Shown: positions 43,578 to 50,484 of the stretch, piece after piece
How the letters are laid out: every line of letters starts with the position of its first letter
Numbering within the stretch: the first letter of the stretch is position 1
Program-made: the position numbers and the translations under genes
Assembly: GCF_003634635.1 (NCBI RefSeq)
Contig: NZ_RBJB01000002.1
Span: forward strand, 1,143,020-1,207,019
Source: Marinobacter nauticus
Lineage (GTDB): Bacteria; Pseudomonadota; Gammaproteobacteria; Pseudomonadales; Oleiphilaceae
Direction of reading: 5' to 3'
Length of the DNA: 64,000 nucleotides
The notes under the pieces: generated by a model
What the model was told of the DNA's origin: nothing
Databases searched by the model: none
What the model saw: only the letters and a program-made list of their open reading frames with translations

Positions 43578-43591
43578 CTGGTCTATACCAG
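43578..43591. promoter_or_regulatory. PhnR-type operator upstream of phnS
   Basis: CTGGTCTATACCAG. The palindrome is identical (reading the other strand) to the site at 46944-46957 before the FAD-phnW-phnX operon. It contains GT-N-TA-N-AC, the core recognised by HutC-type GntR regulators, the class of PhnR. On the minus strand TATAGA inside it could be the -10 element, which would suit repression. Confidence 0.75.
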
Positions 43592-43621
43592 ATTCGCTAA
43601 CCACCACCTTAGGGACATTTG

Positions 43622-43650
43622 ATTGCAAAGACGTGACAGATCAATGACGT
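43622..43650 (-). promoter_or_regulatory. Pho-box-like repeats upstream of phnS
   Basis: On the minus strand: ACGTCAT-4-CTGTCAC-4-TTGCAAT, three 7-base units every 11 bases, matching CTGTCAT at 5, 6 and 4 of 7 positions. This is the PhoB layout, placed upstream of the operator. Confidence 0.5.
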
Positions 43651-43665
43651 TTCCTTGTCGGTCCC

Positions 43666-44493
43666 TCAGGGGCGCTCTCCCGCTGCCAGACGCCTCTCGA
43701 TATCGCGGATAACGCCCGGCAGGTCCTGTATCGAATCGATGACATAGTGGGCTGCCGATCTCGCCATCACCTGGCGACCACGGGCCAGCAACGCTTCGCG
43801 ATCGTTCTCCGGAAGGGCGTAAAACTGAGCTTCACTCAATCCGACTGAATTACCGGAGGCCACTACGGCCACCGTCCACATACCCGCATTCAGACCTTCC
43901 TCAATACCCGTCCCTGTGTCGTCCACTTTGACGCAGGCCTGAACTGCGCCAATGCCCAGCTCGAGTGCGTTTTTCAGGCTCATGTGGGGTGCCGGCCTAC
44001 CGGCCGGCACTTCTGTCGCCACAACCACGCTTTCCGGCATAAACCCCTGATCCGCGAGCCCCGGCAGCATAACGTTCACCATGTCTCGGCTATATCCGGT
44101 GTTCACCCCCAACCTGATGCCTTTTTCACGAAGCAGATCCTGAAGCGCCAGAGCACCCGGAATCAGTGTTGCCCGTTCCGCAATCGCCGCGGTCTGAAGG
44201 GGCAGAAATGCCTCATATAGGCGATCGACATCAGCGGCCTCCGGCGCCTTACCATGAGCCTCCAGCCATTGGCTCCGAATGCGGGGCATCGCCAGCAAAC
44301 AACGGATATGCTCACGCTTTTCGGTCCCCATGGGCTCCCGGGCTTCGGTTTCGGAGACATCAATGCCCTCGTTCCGGAAGAGCTGGAGAAAGGCCTGAAT
44401 CGGTGCCAGTGAACCGAAATCCACGCAGGTTCCGGCAAGGTCCATAATCACCGCTTGCAGAGGACCGGTGTAACGACGGGTGTAACTGTGCAT
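43666..44493 (-). CDS. phnX: Phosphonoacetaldehyde hydrolase (phosphonatase)
   Basis: 275-residue HAD enzyme that breaks the C-P bond of phosphonoacetaldehyde to acetaldehyde and phosphate. The nucleophile Asp is in VIMDLAGTCVDFG, where DLAGT replaces the usual DxDGT and is diagnostic of phosphonatase. The Schiff-base Lys lies in MGTEKREHI, and the acidic motif is KVDDTGTGIEEG. ATG 44493 follows AAGGAAG; the frame continues upstream over phnW but without family similarity. Third gene of the FAD-phnW-phnX operon, 31 bases after phnW. Confidence 0.95.
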   Translation of the reverse strand: MHSYTRRYTGPLQAVIMDLAGTCVDFGSLAPIQAFLQLFRNEGIDVSETEAREPMGTEKREHIRCLLAMPRIRSQWLEAHGKAPEAADVDRLYEAFLPLQTAAIAERATLIPGALALQDLLREKGIRLGVNTGYSRDMVNVMLPGLADQGFMPESVVVATEVPAGRPAPHMSLKNALELGIGAVQACVKVDDTGTGIEEGLNAGMWTVAVVASGNSVGLSEAQFYALPENDREALLARGRQVMARSAAHYVIDSIQDLPGVIRDIERRLAAGERP

Positions 44494-44524
44494 AACGCTT
44501 CTTCCTTTTGCGATCAGAGTGAGA

Positions 44525-45676
44525 TCATTGGTTTTCAAGATTGTCTGGCGCAGCAGCCGGAGGGGGTACCGGCACCGGCATTCCCAGCGACTGACAGGCA
44601 TCGGCAATCGCCGCCACCACTGCATCAATCTGCGGATCATGAAGTTGGCCAATACAGCCAAGCCGGAAGCTCTCCGCGACCGTCAGCTTGCCGGGATAGA
44701 TCAGGAAACCTCGGGCCTTGATGGCCTCGTAAAAACGGGGAAAATCGAAATCCGGGCTGTCTGGAGACAGGAAAGTCGTAATGATTGGAGACAGCCATTC
44801 ATCGGCCAGCAGAGTCTGGAATCCTAGCTCGCGAAGGCCCGCCACCAGTCGGTCGCGGTTTCGGCTGTAGCGGGCAAGACGACCGGCCACACCGCCCTCG
44901 GCCTCGTGTTCTCGCAGGGCCTGCAAAAAGGCGGCGACCACGTGGGTCGGCGGCGTATAGCGCCACTGCCCCGTTCTTTCCATGTACCGCCATTGGTCGT
45001 GCAGATCCAGCGACAGGCTGTGGCACTGCCCTTCGGATTCAGACAGCAGGGTCTTGTCCACTATGGCAAAACCGAAACCCGGCACACCTTCAAAGCACTT
45101 GTTAGCGGACGAAATCAGCGCCGCACAGGGTAACTCCGCCACGTTGACCGGCAACGCGCCAAACGCGCTCATACTGTCGATAATCAGGCGCTTGCCAGCC
45201 TTTTCACAGACCTCGGCGATTTCAGGAATCGGGTTGAGAATGCCCGAACTGGTTTCGCAGTGGACGACCACCACCTGATCAATCTCCGGGTACTGTCGAA
45301 GTGTCCGTGCCACCTCGTCACCCCGCGGCGGATGGTAATCTCCTTTGTCGATGGCCAGGCATCGACGGCCCAAGCGATCAAGAATTTTGCTGATTCGCTG
45401 TCCATAGGCTCCGTTCATCAGTACCAGCGTGGTGCTGTTCCGGGGAACCAGCGTGCCCAACGTGGCCTCCACCGCAAAGGTACCGCTACCCTGCATGGGA
45501 ACGCACACATGACTATCCTGGCCACCGGCCACACGCAGCAGACGCGCGCACACCTCTGCGGTCAGTTCATTAAAGTCGTTATCCCAGGAGCCCCAGTCGT
45601 GCAACATGGCCTGCTTCACAGACAGACTGGTGGTCAGCGGACCGGGGGTCAGTAAATACGGATCGTTCGGGGTCAT
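44525..45676 (-). CDS. phnW: 2-aminoethylphosphonate-pyruvate transaminase
   Basis: 383-residue class V PLP aminotransferase converting AEP and pyruvate to phosphonoacetaldehyde and alanine. The PLP Lys is in ISSANKCFEGVPGFGFAI, a pattern specific to PhnW, and the N-terminus LLTPGPLTTS is typical. ATG 45676 follows GGAG at six bases; an in-frame TTG at 45688 is not favoured. 17 bases after the FAD enzyme gene. Confidence 0.95.
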   Translation of the reverse strand: MTPNDPYLLTPGPLTTSLSVKQAMLHDWGSWDNDFNELTAEVCARLLRVAGGQDSHVCVPMQGSGTFAVEATLGTLVPRNSTTLVLMNGAYGQRISKILDRLGRRCLAIDKGDYHPPRGDEVARTLRQYPEIDQVVVVHCETSSGILNPIPEIAEVCEKAGKRLIIDSMSAFGALPVNVAELPCAALISSANKCFEGVPGFGFAIVDKTLLSESEGQCHSLSLDLHDQWRYMERTGQWRYTPPTHVVAAFLQALREHEAEGGVAGRLARYSRNRDRLVAGLRELGFQTLLADEWLSPIITTFLSPDSPDFDFPRFYEAIKARGFLIYPGKLTVAESFRLGCIGQLHDPQIDAVVAAIADACQSLGMPVPVPPPAAAPDNLENQ

Positions 45677-50359: not shown

Positions 50360-50375
50360 GAGACTCTCCTTTTTT

Positions 50376-50389
50376 TTGGTATATACCAG
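50376..50389. promoter_or_regulatory. PhnR-type operator, proximal to the phosphoesterase gene
   Basis: TTGGTATATACCAG, 17 bases before the start codon and just upstream of AAAGGAGAG. Differs at one base from CTGGT-N4-ACCAG; contains GT-N-TA-N-AC. Confidence 0.68.
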
Positions 50390-50407
50390 TTTTGGTACCT
50401 ACCAAAA
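50390..50407. promoter_or_regulatory. Second palindrome in the phosphoesterase promoter
   Basis: TTTTGGTACCTACCAAAA: 8-base perfect half-sites around two bases, directly next to the first operator. It shares GGTA/TACC with the others. Confidence 0.6.
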
Positions 50408-50452
50408 TAGAGGGAGAAAGTGTCAGTCCTGTGATTATTGTGTTGCGGTCAC

Positions 50453-50470
50453 CTTAAAGATTCATGACAA
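50453..50470 (-). promoter_or_regulatory. Weak Pho-box-like repeat upstream of the phosphoesterase gene
   Basis: On the minus strand TTGTCAT-GAAT-CTTTAAG: units matching CTGTCAT at 6 and 4 of 7 positions, 11 bases apart. It is directly next to the distal operator. Weak on its own. Confidence 0.33.
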
Positions 50471-50484
50471 CTGGTACATACCAG
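50471..50484. promoter_or_regulatory. PhnR-type operator, distal site of the phosphoesterase promoter
   Basis: CTGGTACATACCAG: perfect CTGGTA/TACCAG half-sites, about 110 bases before the start codon. With the two proximal palindromes it could support looping or cooperative binding. Confidence 0.62.

Follow-up and report, generated by a model that had tools for sequence, protein, structure and literature searches.

In Marinobacter nauticus, a stretch of 64,000 nucleotides (the window; contig NZ_RBJB01000002.1, part of a 3.98 Mb genome) carries between 37.9 and 50.5 kb the genes for 2-aminoethylphosphonate (AEP) transport, PhnW, PhnX, a flavin adenine dinucleotide (FAD)-dependent oxidase, a GntR/UTRA regulator (PhnR), a lipoprotein metallophosphoesterase, an EamA-type protein and a HAD-IB phosphatase. 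A palindrome recurs in front of these genes. We propose, with a probability of roughly 0.86, that the palindromes are the operators of PhnR, a predicted repressor that would hold down four units until AEP or a related phosphonate binds. These units, whose operon structure is predicted, are phnSTU-eamA, FAD-phnW-phnX, the HAD-IB phosphatase gene and the lipoprotein metallophosphoesterase gene.

The palindromes are real and lie far above chance. All six sites in the window are palindromic, with four bases separating GT and AC (Table 1). The pattern YTGGT-N4-ACCAR occurs six times in the window, compared with a mean of 0.25 in 200 dinucleotide shuffles; exact CTGGT-N4-ACCAG occurs three times (mean 0.08), and the tighter form YTGGTNTANACCAR, with a central TA, four times but never in the shuffles. 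A first-pass annotation of this DNA had placed exact copies before phnS and FAD-phnW-phnX and variant copies before the metallophosphoesterase gene. Both placements hold, and the phosphoesterase promoter has an exact copy in addition. The phnS and FAD copies are, as claimed, the same 14 bases, lying in opposite orientation. The GT-N-TA-N-AC core that had been ascribed to the motif is present at four of the six sites and missing at 50392 and 50471. Likewise, the three marked transcription units are all present but are part of a set of four, the HAD-IB unit lying beyond the segment first annotated.

Across the genome, the form with the central TA has four copies, every one inside the cluster. 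YTGGT-N4-ACCAR is found 44 times against 22 for its reversed control, and six of the 44 fall within the cluster's 12.6 kb. The literal CTGGT-N4-ACCAG, by comparison, has 15 copies, three inside the cluster and 12 elsewhere. We therefore rejected the literal pattern as a mark of the regulon and require the central TA. The concern that the motif might be equally common at unrelated genes thus applies to the literal pattern, yet not to YTGGTNTANACCAR.

A search of the window's own genome found a single UTRA (HutC-type) regulator, PhnR. Its two domains both score above cut-off (PF00392, 61 bits; PF07702, 101.5 bits), giving the domain plan of the HutC subfamily of GntR regulators. Among solved structures, DasR and NagR/YvoA are closest to it in sequence. 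In NagR, Arg38 and Arg48 read the two G of the half-site (PMC4333415). These residues align with R40 and R50 of PhnR and are invariant in 13 PhnR-like proteins. The phosphate-holding Arg133, Arg135 and Ser165 of NagR align with R135, R137 and S167, likewise invariant in the 13 proteins, and their retention fits a phosphonate effector. No operator for a HutC-type PhnR was found printed in the open literature searched (RegPrecise, subscription journals and Jiang et al. 1995 lay outside the search), and the string TGGTATAGACCA, a mycobacterial PhnF site, was not found in the literature searched for it.

Other GntR-type DNA-binding domains occur in the genome (6 matches in G000, the others matching only in part, at the DNA-binding end, in longer or different proteins), and the sites could belong to another transcription factor of this sort, with PhnR as a bystander. 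We regard this as very unlikely. The motif matches the HutC consensus GTMTAKAC, mostly with four bases between GT and AC (PMC4494728); PhnR is the sole UTRA protein found; and the sites follow phnR across genomes and families.

This last point was examined in 124 genomes of the genus, with PhnR counted at a minimum of 50% identity. PhnR is present in 19 of them; the match in G116 covers 157 residues only. The 19 PhnR genomes hold 77 YTGGTNTANACCAR sites (mean 4.05), whereas the 105 others hold 76 (mean 0.72). A reversed control gives no such excess, with means of 0.53 and 0.85, respectively. The rank-test p value for site count with and without PhnR comes out at 5.8e-11, which overstates significance given the relatedness of the genomes. 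Within 200 bases upstream, YTGGT-N4-ACCAR precedes the FAD-oxidase gene in 16/16 relatives, phnS in 17/18, the HAD-IB gene in 12/15 (at the same place, -25), the phosphoesterase gene in 11/11 and the gene for HutC2, a second HutC-type regulator of some relatives, in 3/3. phnR itself is preceded by a site in only 2/19, both where phnR and the phosphoesterase gene diverge (G013, G112). The positions of the sites before the target genes are fixed across relatives.

The consensus in these relatives is YTGGTMTAKACCAR, with TA at the centre in 85% and no T at position 6. It derives from 71 pooled upstream sites, a few counted twice where two genes share a site; since the sites were chosen by pattern, their fixed letters are no test. 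When each site is counted once in 19 Marinobacter loci (365 kb; the window and the loci of G026, G102 and G116 are not among them), a target start follows within 200 bases for 63 of 69 sites, and for 52 of the 53 with the TA core. The scan of related genomes proposed by the first-pass annotation thus found that the sites track their targets. G026 and G102 have sites with other end letters (ATGGTCTATACCAC, CTGGTCTACACCAT and similar) near regulator, eamA or phnS genes. The upstream alignments omit phnS of G026 and the second phnS of G068; phnR of G026 and G102; HAD-IB of G079, G112 and G013; and the phosphoesterase rows of G082, G068, G112 and G013. All omitted rows are nevertheless included in the upstream-site and Pho-box counts. 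Separately, TTGGTTTACACCAA recurs in many listed genomes of the genus without PhnR (e.g. L083 15979) and may mark another regulator.

The same data bear on a role of the palindromes in RNA. Each site could in principle form a hairpin of 5-base stem and 4-base loop, suggesting small structures in 5' leaders, and the mild genome-wide excess of YTGGT-N4-ACCAR given above would suit such a role. However, the supposed loop is the conserved part, and the end letters often break the pairing (CTGGT...ACCAA). Moreover, the sites follow phnR across genomes, and the distal phosphoesterase site probably falls outside any leader because it lies upstream of a Pho-box-like repeat. A function in RNA is therefore extremely improbable.

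Outside the genus, we examined 20 order-level loci belonging to other genera, out of 57 listed matches. Here, 27 of 31 sites and 25 of 26 TA-core sites, each counted once, are upstream of a target, and a phn or eamA gene carries a site in 13 of the 20 loci. When 369 genomes of the class were searched with TIGR03337, no further genome matched at E <= 1e-60 and none scored above cut-off; we therefore turned to named plasmid records. Among seven plasmid stretches, those of Klebsiella aerogenes, Plesiomonas, Acinetobacter and Halomonas (the last unannotated) carry sites, exact or one letter off, at phn genes or beside the regulator gene, and that of Novosphingobium has a site with one mismatch ahead of an operon ending in phnX. 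The K. aerogenes sites at phnS and phnW adjoin an annotated AEP regulator, and the operator is common to the annotated PhnR clusters of K. aerogenes and Plesiomonas.

The operators are preceded by CTGTCAT-like heptamers that recur at 11-base steps. We scored them against the consensus letters of the pho box. At least 11 of 14 letters are matched before phnR in 17/19 relatives, before the FAD-oxidase gene in 16/16 and before phnS in 17/18, compared with 2/60 in-operon control upstreams. PhoB is present in the genome above its family cut-off. The operators sit between these Pho-box-like repeats and the start codons, with the exception of the distal phosphoesterase site, which is upstream of its repeat. 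A sigma-70 scan of 43400-50700 returned a single consensus promoter, located away from the operators.

Pho boxes are direct repeats bound by PhoB (PMC10294691). In Salmonella, phnSTUV and phnWX are promoted by PhoB (PMC10715179). A logic of starvation first and substrate second has already been proposed: PMC11203657 describes PhoB-controlled phosphonatase operons that include phnR in some bacteria and suggests that substrates or products fine-tune this control. The placement of Pho-box-like repeats upstream of the operators makes a double lock the likely logic in M. nauticus as well. Upon phosphate starvation, PhoB would switch on the regulon promoters and phnR itself. PhnR, bound at operators that would cover or follow the transcription start, would act as the second lock and repress until a phosphonate arrives. 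We infer PhnR and PhoB binding, repression, the effector and the operon structure, as well as the substrates of the phosphoesterase and the HAD-IB phosphatase, whereas the sites with their conservation and placement, the single UTRA regulator and the Pho-box-like repeats are observed. The proposal that one regulator is shared by uptake and catabolism is supported by the distribution of sites and by PhnR being the sole UTRA regulator; control is, however, probably joint with PhoB.

The phosphoesterase, a predicted member of the regulon, combines an N-terminal purple acid phosphatase (PAP) domain, PF16656, with the core PF00149, both above cut-off, as in the purple acid phosphatase domain plan. 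No PDB sequence match was found at E <= 0.001. The best matches of its predicted fold are 3zk4 (plant purple acid phosphatases), wheat phytase 6gja and PhoD 2yeq; the model has a mean pLDDT (predicted local distance difference test) of 65.8, with a better core and a long C-terminal extension of low confidence. The gene occurs in 10 of the 124 genus genomes, all ten among the 19 with PhnR. Three operators spaced 79 and 16 bases are found in six of 12 phosphoesterase promoters, the others having just one or two that are exact. Sorting to the outer or inner membrane is governed by the residue that follows the lipobox Cys, which is Asn in the window protein and Asp in the relatives at L093 and L034, so that membrane sorting of the enzyme may differ between species.

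In four relatives (G020, G082, G144 and L106), the phosphoesterase gene adjoins HutC2, which shares 35-38% identity with PhnR, forms a separate clade and has operators of the same form at its loci. The first-pass placement of the phosphoesterase under PhnR is thus probable for the window but not universal. Sites at the phosphoesterase gene could accordingly be remnants of a HutC2 that this lineage lacks, with PhnR controlling only the transport and catabolic operons, and no second UTRA gene was found in the window's own genome. Several arrangements speak against such relics. The spacing of the three sites (79/16) is preserved, and their sequence stays close to consensus, throughout the window's lineage of four genomes, in which PhnR and the phosphoesterase are neighbours. 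In G068, where only PhnR itself was found at E <= 1e-20, sites are retained at an unlinked phosphoesterase. This second island lies on another contig (L096 6134-10515) and comprises the phosphoesterase gene together with second copies of phnS and of the HAD-IB gene, each preceded by a palindrome; no HutC-type gene was found within the 18 kb examined. Finally, a site lies between the divergent phnR and phosphoesterase genes of G013 and G112. We thus consider relic sites unlikely. On the simplest reading, a single palindrome is recognized by the two regulators, and here the phosphoesterase gene answers to PhnR alone. The phosphoesterase tree supports neither order of the HutC2 and PhnR arrangements. 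Of the distant phosphoesterase relatives beyond Marinobacter, four were examined, and none has the phn genes searched for within the flanks covered. Two irregular copies were also seen: G144 has two tandem phosphoesterase genes beside HutC2, each with its own operators (L098 7564-13075), and the G082 gene (L097 7475-9763) contains an in-frame stop, reflecting decay or an assembly error, and is for this reason omitted from alignments A2 and A3.

As a tentative extension, which we hold to be possible rather than likely, the cluster may serve a two-key form of phosphonate mining that starts outside the cytoplasm. The lipoprotein purple-acid-phosphatase-like enzyme would free AEP from esters or lipids, PhnSTU would import it, and the FAD oxidase, PhnW and PhnX would win the phosphate, the whole being opened only by phosphate starvation (PhoB) together with phosphonate (PhnR). 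In this lineage, the three-operator phosphoesterase promoter would answer to PhnR in place of a dedicated HutC2, since both would read the same palindrome. Its outer pair, 95 bases or about nine helical turns apart, could close a repression loop.

A number of observations weigh against PhnR as repressor of the whole set, beginning with the 12 stray copies of the literal palindrome and the HutC2 pairing described above. PhnR scores 249 bits against a cut-off of 296.75 for the TIGR03337 equivalog and is for that reason not filed as a member, although the window regulator is predicted to work like PhnR. The relatives compared are non-independent samples. The HAD-IB gene lacks a site in 3/15 genomes, and Pho-box-like repeats at the threshold used above are weaker upstream of the phosphoesterase (8/11) and HAD-IB (6/15) genes. 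Beyond the genus, genes without a site are found in seven of the 20 order-level loci, every one from family f20 (sites with one or two mismatches do occur there, several near the regulator gene), and two further order-level loci, L036 and L046, likewise lack one. Lastly, of the two Vibrio stretches among the seven plasmid records, that of V. alfacsensis has no site at the phn cluster and that of Vibrio HDW18 a weak one.

Family assignments of the neighbouring genes are listed in Table 1. The HAD-IB protein passes the broad TIGR01490 cut-off and reaches 223 of 280 bits for histidinol-phosphatase NF052360, under that cut-off. Relatives with 39-44% identity are also found next to genes of phnT or eamA type in further families of the order (L127-L134), making it a recurrent partner of phosphonate clusters. 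Similarly under cut-off are the EamA-type protein against the phosphonate-associated TIGR03340 (191 of 288 bits) and the FAD oxidase against TIGR03364, the FAD oxidoreductase of phosphonate clusters (49 of 285 bits). Oxidation of N-methyl-AEP is known for PbfB/C/D-type enzymes (PMC10574752, PMC10590968). In G070, the FAD-oxidase match (L082 10809-11962) splits into two overlapping pieces through decay or an assembly error.

Table 1. Predicted operators, Pho-box-like repeats and genes of the phosphonate cluster, in window coordinates.
Feature	Position	Strand	Remarks
Pho-box-like repeat (weak), before HAD-IB gene	37864..37881	+	11/14 letters in window
Predicted PhnR operator, before HAD-IB gene, CTGGTGTATACCAA	37898..37911		TA-core form; 11 bases ahead of gene
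HAD-IB phosphatase gene, predicted regulon member	37923..38585	+	TIGR01490 above cut-off
EamA-type membrane protein gene, behind phnU	38661..39566	-	PF00892
phnU2-type AEP permease gene (longest open frame)	39586..41418	-	TIGR03262 above cut-off
phnT2-type ATPase gene	41366..42436	-	TIGR03265 above cut-off
phnS2-type binding-protein gene	42526..43539	-	TIGR03261 above cut-off
Predicted PhnR operator, before phnS	43578..43591		exact CTGGT-N4-ACCAG
Pho-box-like repeats, before phnS	43622..43650	-	three heptamers at 11-base steps
phnX, phosphonoacetaldehyde hydrolase	43666..44493	-	TIGR01422 above cut-off
phnW, AEP-pyruvate transaminase	44525..45676	-	NF010006, TIGR03301, TIGR02326 above cut-off
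FAD-dependent oxidase, first gene of phnWX operon	45694..46926	-	PF01266
Predicted PhnR operator, before FAD-phnW-phnX	46944..46957		exact CTGGT-N4-ACCAG
Pho-box-like repeats, before FAD-phnW-phnX	46972..47000	-	three heptamers
PhnR-type GntR/UTRA regulator gene	47025..47753	-	PF00392 + PF07702
Pho-box-like repeat, before phnR, CTGTCATACTGTCGTCAC	47800..47817	-	
Terminator-like hairpin, between phosphoesterase gene and phnR	47865..47898	-	15-pair stem, then T-rich run
Lipoprotein metallophosphoesterase gene (purple-acid-phosphatase-like)	47930..50359	-	PF16656 + PF00149; lipobox LTGC
Predicted operator 3, phosphoesterase promoter, TTGGTATATACCAG	50376..50389		variant
Predicted operator 2, phosphoesterase promoter, TTGGTACCTACCAA	50392..50405		variant
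Pho-box-like repeat, before phosphoesterase gene	50453..50470	-	
Predicted operator 1, phosphoesterase promoter, CTGGTACATACCAG	50471..50484		exact CTGGT-N4-ACCAG; 79 bases from operator 2

If the proposed regulon is correct, the HutC-type PhnR gains a defined operator suitable for genome scans across Proteobacteria, and its regulon is tied to the phosphate-starvation response. The lipoprotein phosphoesterase and the HAD-IB phosphatase would then be named as parts of phosphonate use, and what they act on would become an immediate question for the bench. Circuits of this kind are familiar; what is new is its reach, to these two enzymes, and the operator.

Comparing the predicted system with NagR (YvoA) and DasR, GntR/HutC repressors with dre-sites, reveals similarity in both protein and DNA. 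As the nearest solved relatives, they share the G-reading arginines and the phosphate-holding residues with PhnR, and their palindromic operators have the GTMTAKAC form seen at the PhnR sites. However, the wing residue Gly69 of NagR, in contact with G at -7, corresponds to R71 of PhnR, whose sites carry C or T at -7. The effector would differ as well, being an amino-sugar phosphate there and a phosphonate here. The phosphoesterase resembles purple acid phosphatases and PhoD in domains and fold, and differs from them in its lipoprotein signal and long C-terminal extension.

On the level of circuitry, the closest parallel is Pseudomonas putida BIRD-1, in which AEP genes are under double control by substrate and nutrient starvation through AepR and PhoBR (PMC9311074). 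Whereas the LysR-type AepR is required for full activation, the HutC-type PhnR is placed here as a putative repressor. PhnR of Salmonella and Klebsiella (TIGR03337, 'AEP uptake and metabolism regulator') has the same domain plan and the same gene company. The window differs in the sub-cut-off score of its regulator and in having a PhnU2-type single permease, the FAD oxidase, the HAD-IB phosphatase and the phosphoesterase. On the K. aerogenes plasmid, the palindrome is the same and lies 12 bases ahead of phnW and 30 ahead of phnS.

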